From assembly GCF_003172895.1 (NCBI RefSeq), contig NZ_QGKL01000009.1:62001-126000 (forward strand): DNA of 64,000 nucleotides, in the 5' to 3' direction. The stretch comes from Leucothrix arctica. Its GTDB lineage: Bacteria > Pseudomonadota > Gammaproteobacteria > Thiotrichales > Thiotrichaceae. A model generated the notes under the pieces. That model did not search any database, had not been told where the DNA came from, and was given only the letters and a program-made list of their open reading frames with translations. The first letter of the stretch is position 1. Every line of letters begins with the position of its first letter. This document shows positions 3,940 through 47,248 of this stretch, in pieces. Made by a program: the position numbers and the translations under genes.

Positions 3940-3951
3940 TACAGTCCTCAC

Positions 3952-5598: not shown

Positions 5599-5610
5599 GT
5601 CAGTGCCTCC

Positions 5611-8019: not shown

Positions 8020-8022
8020 TTA

Positions 8023-8922: not shown

Positions 8923-8933
8923 GAGTTAACCTC

Positions 8934-9960: not shown

Positions 9961-9996
9961 GTGAAATTCCTAGTTAAGTAATAACAACAAAAGCAC

Positions 9997-12234: not shown

Positions 12235-12975
12235 TTACTTGTTGTTATTCGGTAGCCACGCCATTGCGAATTGGCTAAGGTGAGTTTTTTTAGATTCACT
12301 CAGGTAGTCATGCAATGTATCACAACCTTTCTGATACTCACTATTATTTAGTTCGCCTTTTGTTAGCTCTAAACGCTTACTAATCAAGAAGCTATTTAAT
12401 GCATCCGCATCACAGGCATGACTTAGCTCAGTCAACTCTCCGTGCTGATAACACTCCAAAATATTAATACGCTCTAAACCAATGGCACTCGGCAAACTTA
12501 GTACTGAGGCCAGCTCTGACAAAGGTAATCGTCTAGCTTCATGATAGCCAGATAACTCAGTACTCAAGGTTGTATGAACAATTGAATCAATTGACAATTG
12601 ATCAAATATTGCTGGGCAAGTAATGCCATGTTTCAAATATCGGTAAGCCAATACCGGACGGTCAAAATTATCACCATCCCATGACACCAACTCTGAGGCA
12701 GTCTCCATCAACTCAGCAAGGCGCACTAACAACTCATGCTCAGTACCTTCGGAAATAGAGATAACGCTTACTTCACCATTATCAGCCTCTACCACAACAG
12801 ATGCTGAAACAATTTGGTATTGATACAGTGGCAAACGCTCAGTACCACGCTGTTGATTATGCAGGTGCACCATGGCCTTATAAACCCCTTCATCAGCGAG
12901 GTCGCCCAAATTATAAATTGCGCGCCCTGCTTCTACATCGGGTACAGCTGCAATAGCTAATGCTAAACGTGTCAT
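12235..12975 (-). CDS. PolB-like 3'-5' exonuclease family protein with degenerate ExoI motif
   Basis: A 246-residue member of the DnaQ/RNase H-like superfamily related to the exonuclease domain of DNA polymerase B (DNA_pol_B_exo2 type). The match is good over VPDVEAGR, the QRG...YQIVSASVV strand, the ExoII region SWDGDNFDRPVLAYRYL and the ExoIII region SHACDADALNSFLI. The usual first strand VFDIETVPD reads LALAIAAVPD here. Both ExoI acidic residues (Asp and Glu) are therefore Ala, while the ExoII and ExoIII Asp remain. The protein may lack nuclease activity. It overlaps cysM by 4 nt (ATGA). No frameshift or stop is present. Confidence 0.8.
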   Translation of the reverse strand: MTRLALAIAAVPDVEAGRAIYNLGDLADEGVYKAMVHLHNQQRGTERLPLYQYQIVSASVVVEADNGEVSVISISEGTEHELLVRLAELMETASELVSWDGDNFDRPVLAYRYLKHGITCPAIFDQLSIDSIVHTTLSTELSGYHEARRLPLSELASVLSLPSAIGLERINILECYQHGELTELSHACDADALNSFLISKRLELTKGELNNSEYQKGCDTLHDYLSESKKTHLSQFAMAWLPNNNK

Positions 12976-13865
12976 GAAGGAAAAACTCCTGTTGAAATAT
13001 AACGATCGCCTCGATCACAAATAATACTTACGATTGTGGCGTTTTCCACCTGCTCAGATAACTTCAAAGCAGCTACAACACCACCGCCCGATGAGACACC
13101 ACAAAAGATACCTTCTTCTGTCGCCAATCGACGCATCATTATCTCAGACTCAAGCTGTGTAACATCCAACAACATATCCACTCTTGATGGGGCATATATC
13201 TCTGGTAAGTAATCACTATGCCAACGGCGTATCCCCGGAATAGAATCCTTATCAGTTGCAGGCTGCACACCAACAATTTGTACATTTGGATTTTGCTGTT
13301 TGAGATAACGAGAATTACCCATAATGGTCCCCGTTGTTCCCATTGCACTAACGAAATGAGTCACTTGACCTTGGGTGTCTCGCCAAATTTCTGGCCCTGT
13401 GGACTCAAAATGACTCAAAGGATTATCGGTATTTGCAAACTGATTTAACACTTTACCTTCACCAGCTGCCTGCATAGTCATTGCAAGATCGCGCGCGCCT
13501 TCAATGCCTTCTTTGGCAGATACAGAAATAATTTCTGCGCCATAAGCTTTCATGGAGGCACGACGTTCCTCACTCATGCTTTCAGACATGATGAGCTTCA
13601 TCTTATAGCCGCGAATTGCCGCAACCATTGCCAAAGCAATTCCAGTATTTCCGCTAGTCGCTTCAATCAAGCTATCACCCGGTTTAATTTCACCGCGAGC
13701 CTCAGCTTGTTTAATCATACTCAATGCTGCTCGATCTTTGACTGAGCCACCCGGATTATTGCCTTCTAACTTAACTAGTAGCGTGTTATTAGTGTGACCT
13801 GGGATTCTTTGTAGGCGCACTAATGGCGTGTTACCAACTAATGACTCTATCGTCTGATAGTCCAT
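12972..13865 (-). CDS. cysM: Cysteine synthase B (O-acetylserine sulfhydrylase)
   Basis: A 297-residue PLP enzyme that makes cysteine from an O-acetylserine-type acceptor and sulfide or thiosulfate. PLP Lys43 lies in NPGGSVKDRAAL, the substrate loop in EATSGNTGIALA, and the phosphate-binding loop in SAMGTTGTIMG. Features that favour CysM over CysK are the shorter length and RRWHSDYLPEI. It lies 2 nt after acpS. The same place in many gammaproteobacteria also holds cysM near the recO-acpS block. Confidence 0.92.
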   Translation of the reverse strand: MDYQTIESLVGNTPLVRLQRIPGHTNNTLLVKLEGNNPGGSVKDRAALSMIKQAEARGEIKPGDSLIEATSGNTGIALAMVAAIRGYKMKLIMSESMSEERRASMKAYGAEIISVSAKEGIEGARDLAMTMQAAGEGKVLNQFANTDNPLSHFESTGPEIWRDTQGQVTHFVSAMGTTGTIMGNSRYLKQQNPNVQIVGVQPATDKDSIPGIRRWHSDYLPEIYAPSRVDMLLDVTQLESEIMMRRLATEEGIFCGVSSGGGVVAALKLSEQVENATIVSIICDRGDRYISTGVFPS

Positions 13866-13867
13866 AC

Positions 13868-14245
13868 TTACCCCTCAAGTACTACGTTTGCGATCGCGTA
13901 TTCCTGCTCATCTGAAAGCGATAGAAACAGATTTTTCACGCCCAATTTATTAGCGACTTCGAGTGTCGACTCATGCAAAACAAGAAATGGGCGACCATTT
14001 TCATCTTGGCGAACTTCGATTTCATTAAAGTTAACGCCTTTAGCGATCCCTGTTCCCAAAGCTTTTGACAGTGCTTCTTTTGCTGCATAACGTTTAGCAA
14101 AGAATGACAAAGGCTGACCGTGCGTTTGGTATCGATTTTGCTCATTAGGATGCAGTATACGCTCCACGAAGCGTTCGCCGTGACGCTCTAACACTTTTTC
14201 GAAGCGCGATACTTTGGCTATATCTACCCCTATCCCAATAATCAT
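13868..14245 (-). CDS. acpS: Holo-[acyl-carrier-protein] synthase
   Basis: A 125-residue phosphopantetheinyl transferase that activates acyl carrier protein from CoA. It has IIGIGVDIAKVSRFE with Mg-binding Asp8 and RYAAKEALSKALGTGI with Glu57, plus the C-terminal LSLSDEQEYAIANVVLE. In many relatives the order is recO-pdxJ-acpS. Here only 79 bp separate recO and acpS, so pdxJ is absent from its usual place. Confidence 0.95.
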   Translation of the reverse strand: MIIGIGVDIAKVSRFEKVLERHGERFVERILHPNEQNRYQTHGQPLSFFAKRYAAKEALSKALGTGIAKGVNFNEIEVRQDENGRPFLVLHESTLEVANKLGVKNLFLSLSDEQEYAIANVVLEG

Positions 14246-14324
14246 CGACTAGCCCACTAATACAAAAGAATGATTATCTCTTTTTTTTAAAAGGAATACC
14301 AAAACTCTAAGTATTGTTGTGGTT

Positions 14325-15017
14325 TCAAAAGATTAACAACTTTCGACTATTTAGCGGCTTCCCTAAAACCCTCAACCAGAGGTGGTCTAGAAAAACGCGT
14401 AGCTCGGAGTATTGTGACATATCCATCAACTCAGGCGAACGAAGCGCTACAAGTAGCTCTCCTGATACAGGGATACCACCCATTTGCTGTTGATTACGAT
14501 TAAACAGCGACATACCGATACCTAAACGATAAATATAACGTTCAGTCACCAATATATCAGCATCACTTGATTCCAACTGCCACAAGTTGATTATGTGCCC
14601 CAAACCTTCAAGCAGAAGAAGTTCGAAGCGCATCAATACAATCATGGGGATTTCAGAGTCCACCAATAATGATAAACACCGCTGGTAGTTCTCATACAAG
14701 CCATCCAAAGATGTGTGTGGCTTTAAGCACTTGAGTAATAACTCATTGAGATACAAACCATAGAGTAAGTGCCCTGCTGGTATGCGGTGCCGGTAACGCT
14801 CATCTGTCTGAGTGAGCTTACCCATTTCGCCACGCCCCTGCCATTCAAACTGAAGTAGGCGAAATGCTTGTAAATGCCCTTTCTGTACTTTCCCTCGAAC
14901 CTTTGCAGGTCGTGCCATACAGGTCAGACGACCCTGTTCGTGTGTGAATAAGTCCACGATCACATTTGACTCGGTATAAGGCCGTGTTCGGAGAATATAG
15001 CCAGTAGAACTCGCCAT
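14325..15017 (-). CDS. recO: DNA repair protein RecO
   Basis: A 230-residue mediator of RecF-pathway recombination that loads RecA on SSB-coated DNA. It has an N-terminal OB fold (RTRPYTESNVIVDLFTHEQGRL) and a helical C-terminal part with YLNELLLKCLKPH and FELLLLEGLGH. The Cys zinc cluster found in some RecO proteins is not evident, as in many gammaproteobacterial versions. The start overlaps the era stop by one base (TAATG). Confidence 0.93.
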   Translation of the reverse strand: MASSTGYILRTRPYTESNVIVDLFTHEQGRLTCMARPAKVRGKVQKGHLQAFRLLQFEWQGRGEMGKLTQTDERYRHRIPAGHLLYGLYLNELLLKCLKPHTSLDGLYENYQRCLSLLVDSEIPMIVLMRFELLLLEGLGHIINLWQLESSDADILVTERYIYRLGIGMSLFNRNQQQMGGIPVSGELLVALRSPELMDMSQYSELRVFLDHLWLRVLGKPLNSRKLLIF

Positions 15018-15910
15018 TAGCGGTTAGACATAATCCCAAGCTCTTGCAAGTGTCGTGGATTATTATGCCAATCTTCTTCTAGCTTAACCCACTGCTTAAG
15101 CACTACTTTTTTATCGACAAATTCTTCAATCGAGCGACGAGCATCTGTTCCAATGCGCTTTAGAGTCTCACCTTTTTTACCGATGATAATTCCTTTCTGA
15201 CTTTCACGCGCCACCCAAAGGACAGCGTCAATTTCAACATGACGATCAGTTTCTTCATAACGTTCGATATTAACCGCAGTGAAGTAAGGTAACTCTTGAT
15301 GCAGATTCAACACTAGCTGCTCACGAATTAACTCAGCACATATAGAGCGAACTGGTTGATCAGTAATACTGTCTTCATCATAAGACCACTCACCTTCTGG
15401 CACTGCTTCTACAAGCACCTCAAGCAAACGATCTATATTAATTTCACTCGTAGCAGAAGCCGGGATAATTTCTTTAAAATCATACTTAGCAGCCACTTTT
15501 TCCAAATACGGGAAAAGACGTTCTTTTTGCTGAACGCGATCAACTTTATTGACCAACAAAAATACTGGCACTTTAATATGCTTAAGACGCTTTAGCGCCA
15601 ACTCATCTTCATCTGTCCACTTAAGCGCTTCTACAATCATAACAACCGCATCAACCGACTCAAGCGCGGCTACTGCCTCACTATTTAATGTCATATTAAG
15701 TAGGTTTTTAGCTTGCTGGTGGATCCCAGGCGTATCGGTAAAAATCAGCTGATAGTTATCCTTCGTAACAATCCCACGAATATTTGTTCGAGTTGTTTGA
15801 GGCTTATTAGCAATCGCTGAGATTTTATAACCAACTAATAGGTTAAGTAGCGTTGATTTTCCAACATTAGGACGGCCGATAATTGAGACAGAACCACATC
15901 GTTTATTCAT
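15017..15910 (-). CDS. era: GTPase Era
   Basis: A 297-residue GTPase for 16S rRNA and 30S maturation. It has Walker A GRPNVGKS (12-19), switch II DTPGIH, NKVD for guanine recognition, and a C-terminal KH domain with GIIIGKKGETLKRIG. I chose the ATG at 15910 over the upstream ATG at 15946. It gives the family N-terminus MNKRCGSVSIIGRPN and overlaps the rnc stop as ATGA, the usual rnc-era coupling. Confidence 0.97.
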   Translation of the reverse strand: MNKRCGSVSIIGRPNVGKSTLLNLLVGYKISAIANKPQTTRTNIRGIVTKDNYQLIFTDTPGIHQQAKNLLNMTLNSEAVAALESVDAVVMIVEALKWTDEDELALKRLKHIKVPVFLLVNKVDRVQQKERLFPYLEKVAAKYDFKEIIPASATSEINIDRLLEVLVEAVPEGEWSYDEDSITDQPVRSICAELIREQLVLNLHQELPYFTAVNIERYEETDRHVEIDAVLWVARESQKGIIIGKKGETLKRIGTDARRSIEEFVDKKVVLKQWVKLEEDWHNNPRHLQELGIMSNR

Positions 15911-16578
15911 TTTGAAATTACCTTTTGATATGCTGATGCAGCACATTCTTGTTCAGCTTTTCGGCGACTTGTTGAAGCGCCTTGCGTACGAATATTTAGA
16001 CTTTCAATAAAACACTCAGTTGTGAATGTTTGACGGTGGGCATCGCCAGTCGTCGAAAGAAGAGTGTAACTAGGAATATCATGACCACGAGACTGAAGGA
16101 ACTCTTGCAAACGACTTTTAGGATCTTTTAGCTCATCTTCAGCAGGTAAGTTTTTCAAACGAACGTCAAACAAGCTAAGTACTAATGCCTTAGCTGCTTC
16201 CATTCCTTGATCAAGGAAGACACTAGCAATAAGTGCCTCTAAGGCATCTGCAAGAATAGATGAGCGTCGAAAGCCACCACTTTTTAATTCTCCAGAACCT
16301 AGCTTTAAGAGATCACCTAGCTTTAACTCAATACTAATCTCAGCCAGTACAGACTCATTGACTAGTGAAGCGCGTAAACGACTCAAGTAACCCTCTGTTG
16401 CATCGGGCATACCATGATACAGCGCTTCAGTGATTACTACACCCAAAACACTATCACCGAGAAACTCCATTCTCTCGTTGTTATTTTTACCGCTGACGCT
16501 GCGATGCGTCATCGCGCGCTTGAATACTGAGCTGTTTAAGAACTCAGTACCCAATAATTTTTTTAGTTGTTTCGACAA
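15907..16578 (-). CDS. rnc: Ribonuclease III
   Basis: A 223-residue double-strand-specific endonuclease for rRNA and mRNA processing. The catalytic signature NERMEFLGDSVLGVV carries the conserved Glu/Asp residues. The helical RNase III domain ends near 150 and a dsRNA-binding domain follows (DPKSRLQEFLQSRGH, then the basic ASTSRRKAEQECA). The start is TTG, preceded by GGAAAGAG at good spacing, with no better ATG nearby. It sits between DUF4845 and era as in many gammaproteobacteria. Confidence 0.96.
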   Translation of the reverse strand: MSKQLKKLLGTEFLNSSVFKRAMTHRSVSGKNNNERMEFLGDSVLGVVITEALYHGMPDATEGYLSRLRASLVNESVLAEISIELKLGDLLKLGSGELKSGGFRRSSILADALEALIASVFLDQGMEAAKALVLSLFDVRLKNLPAEDELKDPKSRLQEFLQSRGHDIPSYTLLSTTGDAHRQTFTTECFIESLNIRTQGASTSRRKAEQECAASAYQKVISK

Positions 16579-16625
16579 TCGATTACTCTTTCCAATTTAC
16601 AGCCGACTGAAGACACCCGACCTAC

Positions 16626-17045
16626 TTATTTTCCGCTACTACCTAGCTCAACAGCATACTTATGGTCTATTAAAAACGATAAATTTCCAAGCCAAGTCTT
16701 CTTAACTTCGTATTCTACCGTTAATTCACGTTTATTACTCTTTTTAAGCTTAACGATTTGAAATGGGTTATCTTTAGAGCCTTTACTGCTGTAATAAGCT
16801 TTCTCAAGGTCTGCCAAGTTATTAATGTTTAAGTGCTTTTCAACCTTAGCCATTAACTCACGTCGGTTAGCTTTTTCAGAACCGGCATCAGCTGCAATGT
16901 TATTCATTAAAGACCTAACTGAGTTGAACTCTAAATAACTCGGGCCGACTTTTAAACCCGCACTGATAATTAAAATACCGACAGAAATACCAATCAACCA
17001 AGAAATGAGTGTTGCACCCTGCTGTTTATGCTGTGATTTTTTCAT
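16626..17045 (-). CDS. DUF4845 pilin-like membrane protein
   Basis: A 139-residue protein with a basic N-terminus followed by QQGATLISWLIGISVGILIISAGLKVGP, then a small soluble domain with YLEFNSVRSLMNNIA and a late VEYEVKKTWLGNLSFLIDHKYAVEL. This matches DUF4845 proteins. The N-terminus resembles a type IV pilin/GspH-like prepilin segment, but the usual Gly-Phe-Thr-Leu-Ile-Glu cleavage site is not clear. The position between lepB and rnc is conserved in gammaproteobacteria. Function is unknown. Confidence 0.85.
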   Translation of the reverse strand: MKKSQHKQQGATLISWLIGISVGILIISAGLKVGPSYLEFNSVRSLMNNIAADAGSEKANRRELMAKVEKHLNINNLADLEKAYYSSKGSKDNPFQIVKLKKSNKRELTVEYEVKKTWLGNLSFLIDHKYAVELGSSGK

Positions 17046-17108
17046 TTTATTATTATCTTTATTTTGAGTTTCAGGAGTTTTTCTTATTGCTATTGTGTTT
17101 GCCTGAAA

Positions 17109-17139
17109 GCCACCCTGTCAAACACAGTTGACGGGCGGC
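17109..17139 (-). other. Strong hairpin between lepB and DUF4845-rnc
   Basis: On the minus strand GCCGCCCGTCAA pairs with TTGACAGGGTGGC. This gives seven pairs (one G-T), a single bulged A, five more pairs and a 6-nt loop. No T run follows, so it is not an intrinsic terminator. It may protect an mRNA end or be a processing site. Confidence 0.6.
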
Positions 17140-17148
17140 TGTACAACT

Positions 17149-17943
17149 TTAATTCAGTGATGTACCTATACGAGAGAATTCAAAGCCATCTCCACCGCTC
17201 TGCCAATTCCAATGTAACCAGACAAGCGACGCTTGCCCAACAAGGTACTTCTCTGGAACAAATCCCCAGAAGCGCCCGTCATTACTATTATCACGGTTAT
17301 CACCCATCATGAAGAACTGCCCCTGAGGAACGACCCACTCACCGACACCATTTGCAGTATCACGAGAGTAAACAATATTATATTCGCGCTCACCATCACC
17401 TGACTTCATCGACTCAGTAATATGCGGCACGTCAAACTTAACACCAGCAGACGATGTATAAGGATAGGCTGCTAGAGACTTCTGAGCAACAACCTCACCA
17501 TTGACCAATAATCTTTTGTCCGATGTCCATTGAATATGATCACCAGGCAAACCCACTAAACGCTTGATATAATTAATACTTGGATTGTTAGGGTACTTAA
17601 ATACCACTACATCGCCACGCTCTGGCTCACCGACATCAAATATCTTTTTATTGATAACGGGTAGTTTAATCCCGTAGGCATACTTCTTAACTACTACAAA
17701 ATCACCAATCTCTAGCGTTGGGATCATTGAGCCTGACGGAATACGAAATGGTTCAATGATAAATGACCTTAAGAACACAACAACCAATAACACTGGAAGA
17801 AATGAACGTGCGTAATCAATCAACATTGGATCTTTATATTCAGCTCGCTTTCGTCCCATGACACAGCGATAAATAAACATAATCAAACCACAAACAATTG
17901 TCGCCAGTACTAACCAAAACTCAATACCGTAAAAAATTTCCAT
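17149..17943 (-). CDS. lepB: Signal peptidase I
   Basis: A 264-residue inner-membrane protease that removes signal peptides from exported proteins. It has two N-terminal membrane helices, the catalytic Ser in RIPSGSMIPTL (Ser72), the catalytic Lys in YIKRLVGLPGD (Lys127), and box E MGDNRDNSNDGRFWGFVP. I prefer the ATG at 17943, just after the lepA stop; an upstream ATG at 17955 would overlap lepA by 11 nt and add four residues. Neither has a strong ribosome site, which fits coupling to lepA. Confidence 0.95.
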   Translation of the reverse strand: MEIFYGIEFWLVLATIVCGLIMFIYRCVMGRKRAEYKDPMLIDYARSFLPVLLVVVFLRSFIIEPFRIPSGSMIPTLEIGDFVVVKKYAYGIKLPVINKKIFDVGEPERGDVVVFKYPNNPSINYIKRLVGLPGDHIQWTSDKRLLVNGEVVAQKSLAAYPYTSSAGVKFDVPHITESMKSGDGEREYNIVYSRDTANGVGEWVVPQGQFFMMGDNRDNSNDGRFWGFVPEKYLVGQASLVWLHWNWQSGGDGFEFSRIGTSLN

Positions 17944-32381: not shown

Positions 32382-32456
32382 TGGTGTCCCTACGGGGATT
32401 CGAACCCCGATTACCGCCGTGAAAGGGCGATGTCCTAACCGTTAGACGATAGGGAC
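32382..32456 (-). tRNA. tRNA-Glu (TTC), copy 1
   Basis: 75 nt including an encoded CCA. The acceptor arms GTCCCTA/TAGGGAC, the TTC anticodon in loop CTTTCAC and the GGTTCGAATCC T arm are intact. It is the last gene of the tandem array. A weak A/T hairpin followed by T (32340-32363) lies just downstream. Confidence 0.97.
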
Positions 32457-32483
32457 CACATATAGACTTTCTAATTATTAAGA

Positions 32484-32558
32484 TGGTGTCCCTACGGGGA
32501 TTCGAACCCCGATTACCGCCGTGAAAGGGCGATGTCCTAACCGTTAGACGATAGGGAC
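32484..32558 (-). tRNA. tRNA-Glu (TTC), copy 2
   Basis: Identical over 75 nt, including CCA, to copies 1, 3 and 5. It is separated from copy 1 by 27 nt of unrelated A/T-rich spacer. Confidence 0.97.
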
Positions 32559-32585
32559 CTTAATAACTTTAAACTTACAATGATA

Positions 32586-32660
32586 TGGTGTCCCTACGGG
32601 GATTCGAACCCCGATTACCGCCGTGAAAGGGCGATGTCCTAACCGTTAGACGATAGGGAC
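32586..32660 (-). tRNA. tRNA-Glu (TTC), copy 3
   Basis: Identical to copies 1, 2 and 5 over all 75 nt, with CCA encoded. Confidence 0.97.
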
Positions 32661-32680
32661 AATAAATATCATTTTACTAC

Positions 32681-32756
32681 TGGCGTCCCCACGGGGACTC
32701 GAACCCCGGTTACCACCGTGAAAGGGTGGTGTCCTAGGCCACTAGACGATGGGGAC
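32681..32756 (-). tRNA. tRNA-Glu (TTC), divergent copy 4
   Basis: 76 nt with CCA and the same TTC anticodon, but a different body: GTCCCCA acceptor, a CTAGTGGCCTAGG D arm, an ACCACC/GGTGGT anticodon stem and a G discriminator before CCA. It is nearer the usual E. coli tRNA-Glu than the four identical copies around it. Confidence 0.97.
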
Positions 32757-32787
32757 ATCGTAAAGTGCTTTCTAACAAGAGAAGTTG

Positions 32788-32862
32788 TGGTGTCCCTACG
32801 GGGATTCGAACCCCGATTACCGCCGTGAAAGGGCGATGTCCTAACCGTTAGACGATAGGGAC
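32788..32862 (-). tRNA. tRNA-Glu (TTC), copy 5
   Basis: Identical to copies 1-3. It is the first tRNA-Glu after the small membrane-protein gene, whose stop lies 11 bp upstream. Confidence 0.97.
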
Positions 32863-33543: not shown

Positions 33544-36159
33544 ATGATAAACATATCAAAGCCGCTAGGTAAGGCAGGTCTTTTCTGCCTGTCCTGCTTG
33601 CTACTTTTACCGTCATCCCCATCAATGGCGAAGTCTTACAATGCTCTCTCCCCTCTTGGCATTAACACTAATGAAGTTGTCGAATTTGATTCGAGCGCTC
33701 CATTCGTAAATATATTCCGTAACAGCCTTCCTTTTGAAGAAGCTAGACCATGGCTTACAAAGGGCGATGTTCGTTACGACAAGAATGGCTGGCCAACACG
33801 CCTTAATGGCGGTCAGGCAGGGTCTAGATTCATTAATCATCTTCCAGTAGGTACAATTCCTGATGGAAATTACACTGTACTCTATGAAGGTCAGGGTAAG
33901 CTTAGGTACGCTAATGACGCTAAGTTAGTTTCTGCATCCCCCAATCGCGATGTTATCTCGATCAAAGCAGGCGCTGACAAGGAGCTTCAAGCAACCTTAT
34001 TTATTACTGAAACGAATGAACGCAACCCGATCAAGAACATTCGCATACTTATGCCAGGTGGTATTTGTAGCAATAACCCGCTTAAACGCGTGTTCAGCAA
34101 AACGTCGTGTCGTGGTAGTCAGTTTTTATCGTTCGAGAAGCATTATTCGAGAATAATTTTCAATCCTGACTATTTGAATTACATGAAGGACTTCAAAGTT
34201 ATTCGATTCATGAATATGTCTGGAATTACACGTAACCCTATTACTAGCTGGAATCAGCGACCGACAATGGAGAAGTCCACTTGGGGTGGTAAAGAAGGTA
34301 CGCGAGGCGCCCCAATTGAAGTAATGGTTGAGCTAGCCAACCAAAGCAATGCTGATGCTTGGTTTACCCTGCCACATGCAGCTGACGATTATTATATGCG
34401 TCAGTTTGCCAAGTATGTGCGACAAAACCTAAAACCAAACCTAAAGGCATACATCGAATATACCAATGAGGCTTGGAACCCTATTTTCACACAAGCTCAA
34501 TATGTGAAACAAATGGGTCTAAAGATGAATTTGGATATCGACGTAGACAAAGCCGGTTACCGCTACTTTTCAATGCGCTCGGTTCAAATGTTCAAGATTT
34601 TTGAACAAGAGTTTGGTGGAACGCAACGCTTAGTTCGAGTAATGGGAAGCTGGACAGGCTATACCAAGTTAACAAAGATGTTACTTAGCTACCGGGATGC
34701 CTATAAGCATACCGATGCACTTGCTATCGCTCCTTATTTTTACGGAACAAAAGCTGCGAGTAAAAAACTGCGGTCTGCTAATGACGTTTTCAAAATGATC
34801 TATGACAAAAAGCAACCATACTCTATTCCAAACCTTGGACGGTTGGTTGCATCTCATGCTGCCGTTGCTAAAAACTACGGTGTTAGCTTAGTTGCCTATG
34901 AAGGCGGCCAGCATTTAGTAGATCATAAAAATAAAGATATTCGTAAACCACCCACTAATTACTATATTCAGGCAAATCGCGACTGGAGAATGGCGAAGGC
35001 CTATGGTGATTTTTTCAAAGCATGGAAAGACGCTGGTGGCCAACTACTCGTTAACTTTTCTGCGCCTCGTACTTCTCAACGTTGGGGAAGCTGGGGAACA
35101 AAAGAGTACATTACACAACCAGATAGAAAAGCACCAAAGCACCGCGCAATTCTTGGCTATATAAAGAATAACCGCTGCTGGTGGAAAAATTGCTCTAGTG
35201 CTCAGATCGCTCGCTTACAAAAACCAGCGCGCAACCCTGATCCGAAAATTTTTTCTATCGTACCTGACAACAAAAATACTAACAGAGCAGCAGTACTTGC
35301 TCAAAGAGCTAGACAGAAGGCTACAGTACAAGCTAAGGCTAAAGTTGTAAGAAAGCCTGTGCTAGCAGCTAAGCCAAAGCTTGTTGTTATCATACCTACC
35401 TCTGTTGCAAAAAGAGCACCTGTTGTTCAACAAAAAAGACAGCAAGCTCGAGTAACAGCCCCTAGGAAAGCCGTGCCTCCTAAAAGAGTAATTGCACCTG
35501 CGCGAAAGCCGGTTGCACAGGCTAAACCTCGTCCACAGATTGCTTGGGCACCTCAGGTACAGTCTCGTGCTGTTATAAATAAGCATGATGGTGTTATCAA
35601 ACAACGACGCGGCCAAGGTTGGAACAAGGCGCACGCTAATCAATTAAAGAATATCGTGGGTGGCAATATTAACGGCGGCCAAGATTTGGCGGCTAACTGG
35701 CAAACTAGCTGGGATAGAAACCACCTTCACATCCGAGTAGATACTATTGACGACCGATTCGTTCGTGACTCAAGTGCTCCTTGGAGTGATGACTCGATAG
35801 AAATATTTGTTGATGCTGATGGCTCTCGTAATAGTAGCTATGACGGACAAAATGATTTTCACTTCATTTTCCGCTGGCGTGACGACAAGGTGAACTTGAG
35901 TCAAAGCTCTCCTAGACGTCCTAACATTGGCATATTGCAAACGATGAACCGCACAAGCAATGGCTACACTTTGGAGGCATCTATTCCATGGGCTACCTTG
36001 GGCGTTATTCCTCAGCAAGGTTCAATCATCGGACTAGAAGTTCAGGTGAATGATGATGACACTGGTAGTGACCGAGATGGCAAGCTGGCTTGGTTCTCTC
36101 GTAATGACAGTGCCTGGAAAAACCCTCAAAACTTTGGTCGCATGCTACTAGGCAACTAA
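33544..36159 (+). CDS. Secreted clan GH-A-like glycosidase with C-terminal CBM9-like domain
   Basis: An 871-residue protein of unrecognised family. A signal peptide (about 1-29, ending SMA) is followed by a beta-rich region (about 40-170) and a probable TIM barrel (about 200-540). Two motifs look catalytic: YIEYTNEAWN (Asn308-Glu309, like the clan GH-A acid/base Asn-Glu) and VAYEGGQHLV (Glu453, candidate nucleophile). A basic Ala/Lys/Arg/Pro-rich linker (about 556-675) leads to a domain (about 690-871) with WSDDSIEIFVDADGS and YTLEASIPWATLG, typical of family 9 carbohydrate-binding modules. Substrate unknown; a cell-surface or extracellular polysaccharide is likely. The ribosome site is weak. 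A strong terminator follows. Confidence 0.7.
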   Translation: MINISKPLGKAGLFCLSCLLLLPSSPSMAKSYNALSPLGINTNEVVEFDSSAPFVNIFRNSLPFEEARPWLTKGDVRYDKNGWPTRLNGGQAGSRFINHLPVGTIPDGNYTVLYEGQGKLRYANDAKLVSASPNRDVISIKAGADKELQATLFITETNERNPIKNIRILMPGGICSNNPLKRVFSKTSCRGSQFLSFEKHYSRIIFNPDYLNYMKDFKVIRFMNMSGITRNPITSWNQRPTMEKSTWGGKEGTRGAPIEVMVELANQSNADAWFTLPHAADDYYMRQFAKYVRQNLKPNLKAYIEYTNEAWNPIFTQAQYVKQMGLKMNLDIDVDKAGYRYFSMRSVQMFKIFEQEFGGTQRLVRVMGSWTGYTKLTKMLLSYRDAYKHTDALAIAPYFYGTKAASKKLRSANDVFKMIYDKKQPYSIPNLGRLVASHAAVAKNYGVSLVAYEGGQHLVDHKNKDIRKPPTNYYIQANRDWRMAKAYGDFFKAWKDAGGQLLVNFSAPRTSQRWGSWGTKEYITQPDRKAPKHRAILGYIKNNRCWWKNCSSAQIARLQKPARNPDPKIFSIVPDNKNTNRAAVLAQRARQKATVQAKAKVVRKPVLAAKPKLVVIIPTSVAKRAPVVQQKRQQARVTAPRKAVPPKRVIAPARKPVAQAKPRPQIAWAPQVQSRAVINKHDGVIKQRRGQGWNKAHANQLKNIVGGNINGGQDLAANWQTSWDRNHLHIRVDTIDDRFVRDSSAPWSDDSIEIFVDADGSRNSSYDGQNDFHFIFRWRDDKVNLSQSSPRRPNIGILQTMNRTSNGYTLEASIPWATLGVIPQQGSIIGLEVQVNDDDTGSDRDGKLAWFSRNDSAWKNPQNFGRMLLGN

Positions 36160-36170
36160 ATCTGATTAAC

Positions 36171-36209
36171 AGCGGCACTCTGTTTTCTACGGAGTGCCGC
36201 TTGTTTCTT
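36171..36209 (+). terminator. Terminator between the two glycosidase-like genes
   Basis: AGCGGCACTC and GAGTGCCGCT form a perfect 10-bp stem with an 11-nt loop, followed by TGTTTCTT. It separates the transcript of the 871-residue gene from its paralogue. Confidence 0.75.
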
Positions 36210-36266
36210 GATATCTCTAGCAACCACCCTGATAATGTAAATCACTGCTAATCTCAGGTATAACCG

Positions 36267-37952
36267 TTGCGTACTTTATTCAAATTAATACTCACCTTAT
36301 TTGTAATCGCCGCAATAGTTTTAGGTGCTTACTACGCTTATACCCGTATATTAAAACCTAACCGTATCCCCCACACTCCGCCCTCACCTGCCGAGAAAGC
36401 CCAACTAATACAGCAAAAACAACACGCTCGATATTTACTGGGAAGCAATACCAATGAAATCAGAGAAGACAACGCGAGCATTCCGTTCTTAGACCTTTTC
36501 AAGTCATCCATTCCATTTCCTGACACCCACCCGTGGCTAAGTAGCAAAGATGTTATTTATGACGCTCATGGCTGGCCGACAGACCTGAAAGGGGGTGTAG
36601 CAGGAACTAAGTTTTTAAACCGACTTCCTGAAGGCACAGTCGCAAACGGTCAGTACACAGTGCTCTACGATGGTGAAGGTGAACTCCAGTATGGTAACGA
36701 TGCTAAGTTAGTCAAAACTAGCAATGGGAAACATATTATTAGCATTCAAGCTGGAAAAGATAAGATCCTGAATGCATCTGTAATCATCCGAAAAACTAAT
36801 CTAGCAAACCCACTGAGGAATATACGGATACTACCCTCAGGTGGTATTTGCCAAGGTAACCCTTATCAACACGTGAACAACGCGAGTAAGTGTCAAACGC
36901 CTTACTTAGCCTTTGAAAATAACTATCAGGCTATTTTATTTAATCCTGACTACCTTAATTTCATGAAAGACTTTCGCCTTATCCGCTTTATGAATATGGC
37001 AGGAATGACGCGTAACCCTATTAACCAATGGGAAGATAGAAATCGTCCCGAAAAGTCTACTTGGGCAGGTAAAGAAGGAACACGAGGCACTCCTGTAGAG
37101 GTGATGGTTTCACTTGCTAATCAACTCAAGGCTGATGCGTGGTTTTCTATGCCGTATCAAGCTAGCAACGACTACATTAAACAGTTCGCAGAATATACCG
37201 CCAAGCACTTAAACCCTTCACTCAAAGTTTATATCGAATACAGCAATGAGGTATGGAACAATATTTTTATCCATCGTAGATATACGATTAACCAAGGCAT
37301 CGCTCAGAAGCTTGATCAGCACCCTGAAACCGCCGGTATTAAGTTTTATGCCAAACGCAGCACAGAGACCTTCAAACTCTGGGAAAACGCCTTTAACAGC
37401 AAAGAAAGGCTAGTAAGGGTTCTTTCAGGATGGTCTGCCAACCATCGTTTAACGAGTCAACTTCTGTCTTACAACGGCACACACAAACACGTTGATGTCT
37501 TTGCAGTCGCACCGTATTTTTATGCAAGCTTGGAGTCCATGCGTGAAGCGAAGAATGTGGATGACATTTTTGAAGAAATCACGGATAACAGCTCTCGTTA
37601 TGGCTTGCCTGCAATCATAAAGCAGATAAAAAAGCAGGTCGCTATTACTGAAGAGTTTGGCGTTGAACTTGTTGCTTATGAGGGCGGACAACATTTAGTT
37701 GACTGGGAAACGAGAACTGCAGAGCAACACCCTAATCCACTGTTATATGCTGCGAACCGTGATAAACGCATGGGCGCTGCTTACAGTGAATACTTAACTG
37801 CTTGGAATAAGGCGGGCGGAAAAAGCTTCGTTCACTTTAGCGCACCCCGTATTTACAGCTGGTACGGAAGCTGGGGAGCAAAAGAGTTCGTCACTCAGAA
37901 AAGAAGTAAAGCACCAAAATATGATGCATTACTTCGATATATCGATAAATAA
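36267..37952 (+). CDS. Membrane-anchored paralogue of the GH-A-like glycosidase
   Basis: A 561-residue protein closely related to residues 35-540 of the upstream protein, with the same NTNE start, GICxxNP segment, MKDFxxIRFMNM(S/A)G(I/M)TRNPI core, YIEYSNEVWN (Asn327-Glu328) and VAYEGGQHLVD (Glu472). It lacks the linker and CBM9-like domain. Its N-terminus is a basic start plus one helix (about 5-26) with no clear cleavage site, so it is probably tethered to the inner membrane facing the periplasm. The start is TTG with AGG eight bases before. The family is not one I can name; both candidate catalytic Glu are kept. Confidence 0.7.
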   Translation: MRTLFKLILTLFVIAAIVLGAYYAYTRILKPNRIPHTPPSPAEKAQLIQQKQHARYLLGSNTNEIREDNASIPFLDLFKSSIPFPDTHPWLSSKDVIYDAHGWPTDLKGGVAGTKFLNRLPEGTVANGQYTVLYDGEGELQYGNDAKLVKTSNGKHIISIQAGKDKILNASVIIRKTNLANPLRNIRILPSGGICQGNPYQHVNNASKCQTPYLAFENNYQAILFNPDYLNFMKDFRLIRFMNMAGMTRNPINQWEDRNRPEKSTWAGKEGTRGTPVEVMVSLANQLKADAWFSMPYQASNDYIKQFAEYTAKHLNPSLKVYIEYSNEVWNNIFIHRRYTINQGIAQKLDQHPETAGIKFYAKRSTETFKLWENAFNSKERLVRVLSGWSANHRLTSQLLSYNGTHKHVDVFAVAPYFYASLESMREAKNVDDIFEEITDNSSRYGLPAIIKQIKKQVAITEEFGVELVAYEGGQHLVDWETRTAEQHPNPLLYAANRDKRMGAAYSEYLTAWNKAGGKSFVHFSAPRIYSWYGSWGAKEFVTQKRSKAPKYDALLRYIDK

Positions 37953-42191: not shown

Positions 42192-43771
42192 CAGAAAACA
42201 CCTTTTGAAGTAACTCGGAGCGCATCCGCTACTGCTACATCGTTATTAAAGTTTAATGTGTGCAGTGCAGTTAAGTTATCTTTCCAATCTGGCCGACTGG
42301 TTTGCACCCGCTGCTCTATGTACTCATTCGTATCTAGTTTTATAACTTTATTGATATTTAAACCTGCACCATAAGAACCTGCACAATCCTGCGAAGGTCT
42401 GAACCAATCATCACCAACTTTGAAAAATTGCCCAGCAGGACGCGCTGTTGAAGCATCACTAATCACAGGGTTAGCGTTATGCGCTTGCCACTCCGTACTA
42501 ATCGGTGAGTCTGCATGAAAAATATGTAGCTCCTCGTTACCCGACATTCCTTTTTCGGCAGCGACCGTTGCAAATAACCACCAACGTTCATCGTGCTCTA
42601 ATAGTGTTGAGTCGTAAGCATTCAGCTCATCAATCAGTGTATGCACTCGCTCCCATTGATAAGGAAACTCAGTACTGTGATATAACTCAATAGCGCCATT
42701 ATCACCGGTCTCAGGAATCATGTAGTACGTTGATTCATGCTTAAACACATTCGGAAATGATAAATGGTAAGGCTGCTTCAGGATAATTTTGGGACTGCTG
42801 TATGTACCGTTTTGAAAGACTTCCATACAGGATAAGTGACCCCGTTCGGTGTAAAATGGAAGCTCTTCAAAGAAAACAAAATGGCGGCCGTCTTCACTCA
42901 CTACAAAAGGGTCGGCCCAAAAAACATCTTCAGGTGGTACTAGCTCAATATATTCACTAAAATTCAGCGGTATTTCTTCAGCGCCAGCCTTATCTCTAAA
43001 TTGTAATAACAAAATCCATTGCTCATTTTGTCTATATTTTTGCAGTAACTTATCGACCACGTGACCACTAAAGCGCTGAAACAGTCTTGGAACATCTGTG
43101 ATTGAAAGTACATTACTGGTCGTATGTAACTCAGAGTCTTTATCCAATGAATTATTAGACAAACCAGTAGAGCTTTTCTTGTCAGACACCTTATTCAATA
43201 CTCTCAACCATACTGCTTCAATCAACTGAAAATATTGATTTAAGTTACGGCACAGCGACCCTGTATCAAGACTAGGACGTAACTCGCTTAAAATACGGGT
43301 ATGACCATCTGAGTCAAAACCTACAATCGAAATGTAGATCTGGCTCGACTTATCTAAATACTCTGCAATAGCTAACTCTTGGGATACAAGTCCACCTACT
43401 TCAGAAAAATGAGCTTCAATCGCACCTAGCTTGTACTCTTTAAGTAGCTCTGGATCTAACGAAGACTCTGATAGATTGATTAAAATATCTATAGTATTTG
43501 GTGCGCCCACTACAGATTGACTTGTTAAAACTAGGTCAGCATTAACAACATCAAAACTATCTAAAGGAGAACGAAAGATGGTTGCGTCACATTGATGCAA
43601 GAGCGTAATAGACTTGTTAGCTATTAATGCGGTGTTATCACTCGATATAACCTGACATACTTTTATCGAGCCTGACGTTTCCAGTGCTTGAATTAATTCC
43701 AACTGCCATCGCCAAACCTTGCCAGAAGACACAAAGACATTTGCAGAGAGAGCAGTGGATAATTGAGTCAT
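42191..43771 (-). CDS. GINT1-like beta-propeller protein with an unassigned N-terminal domain
   Basis: A 526-residue protein. The C-terminal half (about 250-520) has DVFWADPFVVSEDGRHFVFFEEL, LSFPNVFKHESTYYMIPETGDNGAIELYHS, WWLFATVAAE and ARPAGQFFKVGDDWFRPSQDC. These match the propeller found at the N-terminus of glucosamine inositolphosphorylceramide transferase-like proteins (GINT1_N) and look GH43-like. Bacterial members usually sit in polysaccharide clusters. The first 240 residues may be a degraded formyltransferase-like or other enzyme domain; no catalytic motif is clear. First gene of the three-gene cluster. Confidence 0.7.
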   Translation of the reverse strand: MTQLSTALSANVFVSSGKVWRWQLELIQALETSGSIKVCQVISSDNTALIANKSITLLHQCDATIFRSPLDSFDVVNADLVLTSQSVVGAPNTIDILINLSESSLDPELLKEYKLGAIEAHFSEVGGLVSQELAIAEYLDKSSQIYISIVGFDSDGHTRILSELRPSLDTGSLCRNLNQYFQLIEAVWLRVLNKVSDKKSSTGLSNNSLDKDSELHTTSNVLSITDVPRLFQRFSGHVVDKLLQKYRQNEQWILLLQFRDKAGAEEIPLNFSEYIELVPPEDVFWADPFVVSEDGRHFVFFEELPFYTERGHLSCMEVFQNGTYSSPKIILKQPYHLSFPNVFKHESTYYMIPETGDNGAIELYHSTEFPYQWERVHTLIDELNAYDSTLLEHDERWWLFATVAAEKGMSGNEELHIFHADSPISTEWQAHNANPVISDASTARPAGQFFKVGDDWFRPSQDCAGSYGAGLNINKVIKLDTNEYIEQRVQTSRPDWKDNLTALHTLNFNNDVAVADALRVTSKGVF

Positions 43772-43854: not shown

Positions 43855-45477
43855 CTAAGCACGGTGCTTAGTAGTTTTTTCCTGACCAAAGGAAGTACCT
43901 GACAACACCAGCAGCCTATCTTGTCTTTTCTGCAACGTTTGAGGAAGCATTACAGAAACATCCTTGCTCTCTAGCTGCTGTACAAAGCGAGATAAGAACA
44001 CCCATCCGTCCTGCTTCTCTTTCAAACTTTCCAACCAATACTTATCGAAGAAAACACAGTCAGGCTGTAACTTCCGATAAAGATACAACGGTGTTGTCTC
44101 AACAGAAAAGTTATCCAAGACGATACCGCAGTTCAGCGCACGAAGAGATCCTGCAACGGCAGCTAACTGTGGAATCACATCCATCGACACTGCAGCATCG
44201 AAAACAATTCTTAACTGACTACTTTTTTGCTCTAAAGCAGATGCCAACGTCACAAGCTGTGCCATTAGTGCTTCATTGCGTATCGCGCTAACACTAAGCT
44301 CCATATAGTAAAAACGCCTAGACTGTCTTTCATGAACTAGTGCATCAAAAACCAAACGAAATAATAGCTGGTCCCAAAAGTTCTCTAACGAATGCTTAGA
44401 CTTATTACTGCTGGTCATAGGCGCTAATAGTAAATTTATCTTATTAAACTCTTCAGGGTTTACATCAAGTACCACCCAAGTACTATTTAAAGGGCCTTTT
44501 TTTAAGTCATAGAGCTCTCTCAAACCTAACTTAGCAACGTCATCATGTTGTATCCCCTTCAGTAAAGCATCTAATCTTTTTTCAGCTTCATCCTGACTAG
44601 ATACGCCAATAACTTTATCAAATGGGTTTTTAACAACGCCCTCTTTTTCTTCACCCGGTAACTCCCAAACATTCAACGCTTGAGCAACTGGTATGACATC
44701 AAATTTAGGGGATAAAGTAGTCGGTGCTACCCACATTTGATAACAACGCTGGCCCTGATAAACCACTGGTGCAACTGACACTGTCGAGTTAAACGGAATA
44801 CCTGAGACTTTTTTCATCGATAACGTCAACCCTACATCAAGACCACCACTCTTGTTCGCCATCGCTAAATAGTCTGCTAATAGGCCTTTTTCTTCCTTAT
44901 CAATTAACTTTAATAGTGGAAAACGGGAAAGCTCATCTATTGAGTCAGCGCCAAATAATGCCAAGAACGCAATATTGGCATGAACAAACTGACCTTTTGA
45001 TAAGTAAGCAACAGCATGAGTACTTGTATTAACAAGTTTCAACACACGTTTCTCTGATAGATTTAGTAGTGATTTACAGTGCCGAAAATCTCTTTTTAAG
45101 AGGCTGTACTGAAGTACAAACTGTAACGCAAGCTGGAACTCTTCACGCTCTGGCGCATAAATAATACGGCAACTCTGCAATAAATCCTGAGATGAATCAC
45201 CAAAATATTTATGATCAGGCGGCAGTACTTCAACCGCAATACAATCAGGGTTACGTTTATGTAAGTACTTAAAAAGTGGTAGCGGTTGCTCGATACTCTT
45301 GCGATAGAGAAAAGCAACGTCATTGACTACATCAACCTCAGAATGACCACCGCTTTTAACTGTATCTAACAGATTTAGTTTAGCGGGCACACCTGTGCTT
45401 AGTAACTCATCGAGTACTAATTGATGCTGCTCATCGGTAAAACCAATCAGCATAATTTCTAACGGGGATATAGTCAT
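43855..45477 (-). CDS. FimX-like protein: REC-like, PAS and degenerate EAL domains
   Basis: A 540-residue cytosolic protein. Residues 1-130 look like a receiver-like domain without clear phosphorylation residues. A PAS domain follows (about 145-255) with TSTHAVAYLSKGQFVHANIAFLALFG, similar to FimX. The last part (about 370-525) follows the EAL fold (ELSVSAIRNEAL, LRALNCGIVLDNF, LQPDCVFFDKYWLESL), but the EAL and catalytic acidic motifs are lost and no GGDEF domain is present. It is probably a c-di-GMP or protein-binding receptor, not a phosphodiesterase. Known FimX controls type IV pili. It is the partner of the next gene. Confidence 0.65.
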   Translation of the reverse strand: MTISPLEIMLIGFTDEQHQLVLDELLSTGVPAKLNLLDTVKSGGHSEVDVVNDVAFLYRKSIEQPLPLFKYLHKRNPDCIAVEVLPPDHKYFGDSSQDLLQSCRIIYAPEREEFQLALQFVLQYSLLKRDFRHCKSLLNLSEKRVLKLVNTSTHAVAYLSKGQFVHANIAFLALFGADSIDELSRFPLLKLIDKEEKGLLADYLAMANKSGGLDVGLTLSMKKVSGIPFNSTVSVAPVVYQGQRCYQMWVAPTTLSPKFDVIPVAQALNVWELPGEEKEGVVKNPFDKVIGVSSQDEAEKRLDALLKGIQHDDVAKLGLRELYDLKKGPLNSTWVVLDVNPEEFNKINLLLAPMTSSNKSKHSLENFWDQLLFRLVFDALVHERQSRRFYYMELSVSAIRNEALMAQLVTLASALEQKSSQLRIVFDAAVSMDVIPQLAAVAGSLRALNCGIVLDNFSVETTPLYLYRKLQPDCVFFDKYWLESLKEKQDGWVFLSRFVQQLESKDVSVMLPQTLQKRQDRLLVLSGTSFGQEKTTKHRA

Positions 45478-45556: not shown

Positions 45557-47248
45557 TTAGAGAACATCCCAGAGACTACTAAAGTCACTTTCTTGCTCTG
45601 GGGTATCTTCAGTTTGATCTAAAGTAATGTATTCGCAATAAGCAAAGCTACCTAAGCACTCATCTATTTTAGTAATCTGAATGCTCTGAATCTTGTTCCC
45701 TGCTAATTCTACCGTTAAGACATCTTCTACCTTAAAAATATGCCCCGGAAAAATAAGCGCCGGCTCATCCCTCATTTCTTGAACAATAGGAAGCTGCAGA
45801 CCTTTAACCGGTAATCTTTGGGTAACTTTACGATTAGTTACTTCAGTCGCAGTCACTGTTACACCTTTAGGTGACAGCAACTCAGAACCGAAACATAAAC
45901 CTTTGTCTCTATAAAAGTCCATCCAACGAATAACGGCGATTTGCCAGTGGTCACTATCATCAGCAGGATCTTTAATCGCAATAAGCTCACCGACTCGAGC
46001 GGCTGATTGCTCAACGACTTTCTGTCTCAGGCCATAACCTTTAGAGCTACTATTATCAATAAACCATGGCTTTATTTCAGCATCACACTCTTCTAAAGAG
46101 CTACCAACTTCAATATCAACCCAAGGGCTTGATGGTGACTCACCGAGTGCCATTTTTTCATAGAGATTGTCTTCTGCGCTTGAAGCATCCTCTTCGTCTT
46201 CATCAACTTGGTTAGTTGCTGCAACGACAGCGACGACATCGGTCATTCTCATGACTACGCCTGCAGTTTCTTCTCGATCAAAACGTTTATTTTTACGACT
46301 ACTCGACTTCGTTAAGCGCGTCAGTAGACGTTGTGCTAAACCACGGTTAAGCATTGGTTGATCATCATGCAGACCGAAACTTGCATCCTGCGTAATCGTT
46401 ATAAAGTCTCGTAGGATATCCTCAACTTTTGATACATCAAATATACGGCTAGTGGCAGAATTCAGAACTTCACTGACAGGCATTAATGCCGCTGGCTCAT
46501 CGCTGTTCAGTAGCGCGATATGAGCATAATCACCAGAAATCAAATCAGCATCCGTTAAAATAGCAACGCTATTAACGACACTAGAAAAGAACTTTTCAAC
46601 TCGGTCAGCCTCTCCCTGTCTCAAACTATTCGGCACACCTAGGGCAACTAAATTGAACAGCTTGTAGTAGGCCTCAATGGTAAAACTATCGGACTCACCA
46701 TCCACACTTTTAGGGATAGTCTTATCTTGTATTTTATTTTCGCAAGCCAGTAAGTAAAGGTGATGTACGTCATGCCAAATATTTCGCTTACTTTTTACAT
46801 AGACACTGTAACTATTGACTAAGGTACGTCCCATATATTTGATGGCACGCCCTATCGCAATTGTTAGGCGCTTTTGATTAATACTGCCGCGGGTTAGCAT
46901 ATCTAAAGCAGCTAACTGATAAGAGCCAGCAAGCTCAAGCTGTAAAGCTTGTTTCAAATCGAATACTTTCTGACTACGCTCAGGCAGCGGAAATGCTCGT
47001 GTAGAAAAGTGTCTATCTAAGTTATCCAACGCCATATTTACATAAGGCAAAATAACTTCAGTAATATCAATACGAACGGAAGGCGCTAAAGGGTGCTGAT
47101 TAATAGCGACTAAGCTTTGATACAAAACACGCGTTACTTCGCCCATATTGGTTAAAGGGAGTGTTTGCGCCCAGCTTTTCGCTTGGGATACTGACGACAG
47201 TAGTACTGCGTCCAACTTCTTTTTTTCGGGACTTGAAAGCTGACCCAT
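45557..47248 (-). CDS. Large protein with a C-terminal atypical PilZ-like domain
   Basis: A 563-residue, mostly helical cytosolic protein. The N-terminal 300 residues have no family I recognise. An acidic linker (about 348-362, DEDEEDASSAED) is followed by a C-terminal beta domain (about 390-540) with DNSSSKGYGLRQ, ARVGELIAI, WQIAVIRWM and CFGSELLSP. This looks like the PilZ-like fold of proteins encoded next to FimX in other gammaproteobacteria; the classical RxxxR/DxSxxG pair is incomplete. It ends 79 nt before the FimX-like gene and is likely in one operon with it. A c-di-GMP link is inferred. Confidence 0.55.
   Translation of the reverse strand: MGQLSSPEKKKLDAVLLSSVSQAKSWAQTLPLTNMGEVTRVLYQSLVAINQHPLAPSVRIDITEVILPYVNMALDNLDRHFSTRAFPLPERSQKVFDLKQALQLELAGSYQLAALDMLTRGSINQKRLTIAIGRAIKYMGRTLVNSYSVYVKSKRNIWHDVHHLYLLACENKIQDKTIPKSVDGESDSFTIEAYYKLFNLVALGVPNSLRQGEADRVEKFFSSVVNSVAILTDADLISGDYAHIALLNSDEPAALMPVSEVLNSATSRIFDVSKVEDILRDFITITQDASFGLHDDQPMLNRGLAQRLLTRLTKSSSRKNKRFDREETAGVVMRMTDVVAVVAATNQVDEDEEDASSAEDNLYEKMALGESPSSPWVDIEVGSSLEECDAEIKPWFIDNSSSKGYGLRQKVVEQSAARVGELIAIKDPADDSDHWQIAVIRWMDFYRDKGLCFGSELLSPKGVTVTATEVTNRKVTQRLPVKGLQLPIVQEMRDEPALIFPGHIFKVEDVLTVELAGNKIQSIQITKIDECLGSFAYCEYITLDQTEDTPEQESDFSSLWDVL

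Follow-up and report, generated by a model that had tools for sequence, protein, structure and literature searches.

Background

Hydrolases are known from bacterial exopolysaccharide (EPS) systems. PslG is the hydrolase of an EPS cluster and is of a GH39-like kind (GH standing for glycoside hydrolase family). PelA, a hydrolase of an EPS system, generates the low-mass secreted polymer of that system (PMC9894940), and is thus a precedent for an EPS hydrolase that produces a secreted form. Here we analyse two neighbouring plus strand genes in a stretch of 64,000 nucleotides from Leucothrix arctica (RefSeq assembly GCF_003172895.1, contig NZ_QGKL01000009.1, positions 62,001 to 126,000 of the forward strand), referred to as a whole as the window. 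They encode protein 1 (871 residues, ATG start) and protein 2 (561 residues, TTG start), which share a core of approximately 505 residues with identity at 247 of 504 aligned positions.

The order to which the window belongs consists of filament- and rosette-forming bacteria, and Thiothrix nivea is traditionally placed in the same family. T. nivea has been described as forming gonidia and rosettes and as having a layered sheath, the structure of which was called unknown in 2011 (PMC3368414). A first-pass annotation, made from the DNA letters, had presented the pair as glycosidase-like genes that could not be placed in a named family; both open reading frames (ORFs) have the coordinates it gave and every motif it quoted is found in the sequences. 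Our main interest is the core as an unnamed, widespread glycosidase family that is universal in one order and is also phage-borne. That it is a GH-A-like retaining family, endo-acting on self-made surface polysaccharide, with a role in remodelling and with a use by phages, is a combined statement that we hold to be somewhat better than even.

Fold and catalytic residues of the core

The AlphaFold model of the core, with a mean predicted local distance difference test score (pLDDT) of 92.4 and a predicted template modelling score (pTM) of 0.92, is a (beta/alpha)8 barrel; whether the predicted fold departs from a TIM barrel was examined, and the model is one. Structures of GH51, GH79, GH39, GH5 and GH10 are among its top structural matches. 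The best Foldseek match is the GH51 structure 6d25 (E 4.7e-9), and many GH10 xylanases were matched as well. VIA comparison with the bacterial heparanase 5bwi gave Z 22.8 and a root mean square deviation of 3.0 over 293 aligned residues with 14% identity, next to GH51 3ug3 (Z 22.4), GH79 7psk (Z 22.0) and GH39 2bfg (Z 20.6); we take 5bwi and 7psk to belong to family GH79.

Putative barrel strands, read from DSSP in model numbering and numbered by their order along the chain, are 9-12, 190-193, 242-247, 273-277, 334-339, 363-366, 419-427 and 472-475. Asn308-Glu309 (model 279-280) follow strand 4 and Glu453 (model 424) lies on strand 7, as is typical of clan GH-A. From these strand positions the two glutamates would be expected to face one pocket. 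The clan pattern is also matched by Arg221, on strand 2, and by Tyr398, after strand 6, which presumably correspond to its hallmark residues. The numbering Glu309/Glu453, as first proposed, is right for protein 1, and the counterparts in protein 2 are Glu328/Glu472.

From 194 core ORFs, 155 cover at least 80% of the alignment columns and 126 of these are distinct. Asn308-Glu309 and Glu453 are kept in all 126, as are Arg221, Asn266, Glu305, Trp311, Asn312, Tyr398, Tyr452 and Gly455. Profile or single-protein searches provided 83 of the 126 (44 from the order, 6 from other gammaproteobacteria, 15 from a planctomycete phylum and 18 from a cyanobacterial phylum), while the other 43 (13 + 4 + 26 viral) came from peptide-pattern scans that include or overlap the catalytic motifs, such that conservation among them is biased and weighs less. 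The pair is also present in 16/16 plasmid ORFs that cover both sites, a further plasmid fragment not including both. As for viral ORFs, 41 of 44 cover both glutamates and all 41 keep them, the other three missing one site through a gap.

A GH-A-like glycosidase fold with Glu309 and Glu453 as catalytic pair is, judged from the model, very probable, and the resemblance to clan GH-A that had been noticed in the sequence is borne out by the predicted fold. The core would thus constitute an unclassified family of GH-A-like retaining glycosidases, with catalysis and retaining mechanism predicted from the residue pattern. That its paralogs are non-catalytic or binding-only is very improbable: the expansion to up to 15 matches per genome could mean receptors or matrix proteins, but the catalytic pair, which pseudo-enzymes commonly lose, is kept in all ten core copies of the window's genome as well as in the 126 distinct members.

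A beta-sandwich of approximately 100 residues is inserted between strands 1 and 2, and folds with a pLDDT of 94.8 when modelled alone. It has no match in PDB at E <=0.001. VIA finds jelly rolls at Z <=6.8, including several carbohydrate-binding modules (CBMs) and Vip3/Cry C-terminal domains, with no row that stands out. We claim no new fold for it, and a CBM-like role would be a guess.

Relation to named families

The core has only chance-level matches in Pfam, NCBIfam, PHROGs, PADLOC and the sequences of all PDB chains. The PDB sequences were also searched with a 20-row profile, up to E 10, and those 20 members were scanned singly against Pfam. By these libraries the core appears unnamed, as had been supposed, and the strong match to a well-studied GH family that was looked for did not occur in the libraries searched. 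Neither GH79 nor GH51 has a Pfam match to the core, and no PDB chain of GH79 or of GH51 is reached at E up to 10. GH39 (PF01229) and GH5 (PF00150) lack a Pfam match too, and hhalign comparison with nine GH39 and fourteen GH5 proteins, drawn from other genomes, gave probabilities of 0.2% and 0.1%, respectively. The GH5 alignment paired the strand 7 motif, and was disregarded since its probability is only 0.1%. PF01229 occurs in 2 of 63 genomes of the order, in one above the cut-off; no GH5 match was found in the window's genome.

Since sequence ties to GH79 and GH51 were not found and the GH39 and GH5 profiles are not significant, we file the core in none of these four families and call it GH-A-like only; the clan assignment rests on fold and residue pattern because the GH39 and GH5 comparison is not significant. 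The core could nevertheless belong to a CAZy family that is already described but not yet covered by Pfam, NCBIfam and PDB. Some CAZy families have no Pfam model, and the core has clear GH-A relatives by both Foldseek and VIA. On the other hand neither Pfam, NCBIfam nor the PDB sequences gave a significant match, the latter even with the 20-row profile, and a search of the open-licence literature, four core motif strings included, turned up no publication on the family. We consider this explanation unlikely.

Distribution and paralogs

Profile searches find the family in 63/63 genomes of the window's order (one family, eight genera), with 3-15 matches each, and in 46/46 of those that are at least 90% complete. 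Records with names that share the clade of these genomes are from Leucothrix, Cocleimonas and Thiotrichaceae. E-values go down to 6e-260 in other genomes, which indicates conservation far beyond chance. A gammaproteobacterial sample has it in 11 of 369 genomes, three of which are from the window's family, hence in 8 of 366 others. The planctomycete and cyanobacterial phyla have it in 23/246 and 14/244 genomes, counts that include the seeding genome, and relatives occur in 25 plasmid records, mostly alphaproteobacterial.

A tree of 103 rows, made by a quick method, groups 30 of the 32 rows of the order together, plus one other gammaproteobacterium. The window's genome, which is related to Leucothrix pacifica (protein 2 shows 67% identity), has ten core copies: besides the pair, six are single and the remaining two sit in tandem as a second pair, both partners of which have a CBM of family 9 (CBM9). 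Protein 1 and protein 2 are assigned to separate paralog clades and thus do not stem from a recent duplication. Two further copies of the window's genome, L156 (9028-11319) and L161 (8655-10349), are not placed in the clade of the order; they lie among cyanobacterial, viral and gammaproteobacterial rows and could represent separate acquisitions.

Viral members

A pattern scan identified 44 IMG/VR contigs that encode relatives; querying the GenBank phage collection with a single protein gave no match. Neighbours or long proteins were scanned on seven viral contigs, and phage structural genes were found on four. On L048 the core gene stands alongside homologs of tail sheath, tail tube, DNA polymerase, ribonucleotide reductase and SbcCD; on L034 it is flanked by a terminase and a head-tail adaptor to one side and by a major head protein to the other; and on L070 it is one gene away from a tail fibre homolog. 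On L067 the core is inside a protein of 1,854 residues (5793-11357) that starts 2.2 kb after the tail tube gene, and on L071 inside one of 1,745 residues (4950-10187), neither protein having a PHROG match. Such very long proteins would be tail depolymerases. For L056, L064 and L071 no PHROG match was obtained among the proteins scanned, and their phage nature rests on the IMG/VR assignment.

Viral rows require six label changes on the tree, three of them forced by starred branches, a picture compatible with several transfers, although some of these rows are long-branched. Members on nine viral contigs (L036, L038, L040, L044, L045, L047, L048, L050 and L052) have a very short hydrophobic N-terminus of the form MLLxxLLAxxPQ, below the usual length of a signal peptide. 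Contig L056, which bears a family member, also encodes a TnpB-like protein at 12280-13896, recognised by eye.

Substrate and role

We propose that both proteins would work beyond the inner membrane, as endo-acting enzymes that hydrolyse a self-made surface polysaccharide by double displacement. Protein 1 would be exported and held on polysaccharide chain ends by its CBM9, whereas protein 2 would be held at the membrane and face the periplasm. A hydropathy cut of a simple kind detects a hydrophobic N-terminal stretch in 53 of the 57 distinct order members. Glu453 would act as nucleophile and Glu309 as acid/base of the double displacement. The role would be the trimming or remodelling of sheath, holdfast or slime rather than feeding, and phages would use the same enzyme to pass through the surface layer. 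We infer endo action, cell location and phage role. As to the substrate class, a self-made surface glycan seems the likeliest because the family is universal and multiplied in a filament- and rosette-forming order, and we give action of the core on such a glycan an even chance.

Plasmid relatives lie near EPS genes, most clearly in Shinella, where an O-antigen ligase and an export protein flank the family gene. We examined 16 of the 25 plasmid records (H10, H12, H15 and H19 were omitted as near-copies), judging neighbourhoods from product names or, for the unannotated L221-L224, by eye. EPS genes are clear at 7 of the 12 annotated loci (L214, L215, L216, L218, L225, L226 and L228) and give a weak signal at 3 (L217, L219 and L227). 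At L218, on a Paracoccus marcusii plasmid, a protein of 2,302 residues (3459-10367) that is annotated as a family 16 glycosylhydrolase also has the core; if the annotation is right, it combines two glycosidase types in one chain.

In the window's genome, neighbours of the eight core copies outside the pair are mostly housekeeping genes, many of them read by eye. They include NadA, a GGDEF/EAL gene, a sulfate permease, an EngA-type GTPase, DarP, a type II topoisomerase-like gene (named from reading its first residues) and an acyl carrier protein (ACP) phosphodiesterase. A GDSL lipase adjoins one copy, which also has an acyltransferase-3/SGNH gene in its vicinity. One gene away from the L161 copy, at 12624-17885, a protein of 1,753 residues is encoded that has 13 Big_9/cadherin-like repeats and an OmpA domain.

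Several observations weigh against the proposal. At the level of the fold, the Foldseek TM-scores of the whole model reach only 0.26-0.44 of the query over 50 rows, VIA aligns approximately 270-330 of the 521 model residues, and profile comparison with the GH39 and GH5 sets is, as said, not significant. The ten copies of the window's genome are scattered, and no EPS synthesis operon was recognised alongside, their neighbours having been read partly by eye. Two of the 12 annotated plasmid loci (L220 and L229) are without EPS genes, and in a control on nine plasmids, which leaves out L218, L220 and L229, opposite-side regions are positive in 5/9 versus 9/9 around the family gene, of which 6 are clear and 3 weak. 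Because these plasmids are rich in EPS genes throughout, and several are closely related, we take the plasmid association as a hint. Of 29 viral members, only 5 pass the hydropathy cut, so that most lack a normal hydrophobic leader. Finally, the family gene of plasmid locus L224 stands beside what resembles, by eye, a sugar ABC transporter uptake operon, and in the same-genus genome G396 a tandem CBM9 pair lies approximately 4.5 kb from a sulfatase-like gene (L164, also by eye).

The last two neighbourhoods suit the main rival explanation, by which the proteins are feeding enzymes that break down algal or environmental polysaccharide for uptake, CBM9 serving as anchor on the foreign glycan. 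Leucothrix is marine and often lives on algae, and the CBM9 module of protein 1 is in line with such a function. However, no SusCD, sulfatase or sugar-uptake gene was recognised by the ten copies of the window's genome (partly by eye), and presence in every genome of the order fits a shared structural trait better than a diet. Feeding is an explanation that we regard as possible but the less probable one, and remodelling of self-made polysaccharide is retained as the preferred reading.

A bolder form of the remodelling proposal is that the core founds a new glycoside hydrolase family, a GH-A-like barrel bearing a jelly roll between strands 1 and 2, that is a hallmark of the order, with many paralogs that cut and remodel the polysaccharide of sheath and holdfast, and that phages took it up repeatedly, sometimes as long tail-region depolymerases; this we put forward tentatively, as rather unlikely in its full extent. 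If the proposal is true, an enzyme family without Pfam, NCBIfam, PHROGs or PDB-sequence match would be added to a well-studied clan, there would be a first candidate for what shapes the layers that surround the filaments of Leucothrix and its order, and phage genes outside the coverage of PHROGs would be flagged as possible strippers of such layers.

Organization of the locus and the tandem arrangement

Features of the two genes are listed in Table 1. The first-pass annotation had assigned a signal peptide and basic linker to one copy and a membrane anchor to the other, which agrees with our inspection, and a CBM9-like domain to protein 1, which is confirmed by PF06452 (138.8 bits versus a curated cut-off of 23.4) and by a PDB match to 1i82 at E 2e-20. 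Protein 2 consists of anchor and core with no further module beyond the core, and its counterparts in L009, L010 and L021 also have TTG as first start codon.

Table 1. Features of the two genes and their products (positions in the window)
Feature	Position	Strand	Basis or detail
Protein 1, 871 residues, predicted secreted: GH-A-like core, basic linker and CBM9	33544..36159	+	
Signal-peptide-like N-terminus, residues 1-29	33544..33630	+	by inspection; hydrophobic stretch ends S-M-A
Family core of protein 1, residues 36-540	33649..35163	+	profile match; AlphaFold (AF2) model mb91e94ae1497, pLDDT 92.4
Jelly-roll-like beta-sandwich between barrel strands 1 and 2	33748..34053	+	model me2b761ab2738, pLDDT 94.8
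Glu309, presumed acid/base, Asn-Glu after strand 4	34468..34470	+	126/126 members; strand E273-277 of model
Glu453, presumed nucleophile, strand 7	34900..34902	+	126/126 members; strand E419-427 of model
Basic Ala/Pro/Lys/Arg-rich linker, residues 557-691	35212..35616	+	33 Lys/Arg versus 3 Asp/Glu in 135 residues
CBM9 module, residues 692-869	35617..36150	+	PF06452 E 2.6e-40; aligned to 1i82
Terminator-like hairpin between the two genes	36171..36201	+	13 pairs, 8 G-C
Promoter-like site upstream of protein 2	36208..36236	+	10/12 consensus matches
Protein 2, 561 residues, predicted membrane-anchored core copy, TTG start	36267..37952	+	ORF list
N-terminal transmembrane anchor of protein 2, approximately residues 4-27	36276..36347	+	by inspection
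Family core of protein 2, residues 55-559	36429..37943	+	Glu328 at 37248-37250, Glu472 at 37680-37682

The two genes are separated by a terminator-like hairpin followed by a promoter-like site, and because of these their joint transcription is doubtful. Both elements are weak evidence since shuffled sequence yields sites of this kind at least as often as the region does (terminator-like sites, 4 found versus a mean of 5.5; promoter-like sites, 4 versus 10.0).

It had been suggested that the two proteins divide their labour in a two-step system, in which protein 1 would free fragments outside and protein 2 would cut further in the periplasm. One secreted and one anchored copy are indeed predicted in the window, tandem core pairs are present in at least 15 of the 63 genomes, from three genera and with the window's genome included, and the gene order of two-component system (which precedes the pair in the window), pair and aroE/hemB is kept in loci L009 and L021. 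However, the partners belong to different paralog clades, protein 2 being nearest, among the copies of its own genome, to an unlinked one (56% identity versus 49% to protein 1). The CBM9 query matches both members of the Cocleimonas pair L014 and, since this and the second pair of the window's genome both double CBM9, a soluble partner with CBM next to an anchored one is no fixed rule. The sites between the genes argue, if weakly, in the same direction. On this evidence the division of labour finds no support, and we rate a two-step system as decidedly unlikely.

The pair was further said to adjoin tRNA genes, which is correct: upstream, the minus strand carries five tRNA-Glu genes and one tRNA-Ala gene. 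The five tRNA-Glu (TTC) genes stand in a row at 32382-32862 and the tRNA-Ala (GGC) gene approximately 270 bases further, a large array of a single tRNA. A polysaccharide synthesis cluster, said to lie 2 kb off, is there in part. Three glycan-type genes exist (GT4-like, Acetyltransf_6 and GINT1_N-like), but they sit beyond aroE and hemB and do not make up a full synthesis locus. A functional link of the pair to these genes is not borne out either, as most of the other eight core copies of the genome stand alone among mostly housekeeping genes.

The GINT1_N-like gene (42194-43771, minus strand) encodes a protein of 526 residues, the C-terminal part of which matches GINT1_N (glucosamine inositolphosphorylceramide transferase, E 1.3e-40), a domain named after a plant enzyme; the trio is retained in L009 and L021. 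It is accompanied on the minus strand by a gene at 43858-45477, the product of which has a weak EAL match under the curated cut-off, and after it by one at 45560-47248 for a protein of 563 residues with no Pfam match.

Comparison with known systems

The CBM9 of protein 1 aligns over nearly its full length with the Thermotoga CBM9-2 structure 1i82 (E 5.6e-21), and two Trp positions are kept, which we take to be the residues that clamp the sugar end in CBM9-2. In Thermotoga Xyn10A the module is joined to a GH10 xylanase, whereas in protein 1 it is joined to the unnamed core.

The core itself shares its (beta/alpha)8 barrel with GH79 (5bwi and the Acidobacterium beta-glucuronidase 7psk), in which the acid/base and nucleophile glutamates are, as we assume, on strands 4 and 7 as well. 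It differs from GH79 by an identity of 10-14% without a match at the sequence level, and by the beta-sandwich that the core family has between strands 1 and 2. The arabinofuranosidases of GH51 (3ug3, 1pz2 and 6d25) have the same barrel, with VIA Z up to 22.4 but 8-12% identity in the VIA rows. GH39 too has the same barrel, VIA giving Z 20.6 for 2bfg, whereas its profile shows no significant similarity to that of the core (hhalign 0.2%).

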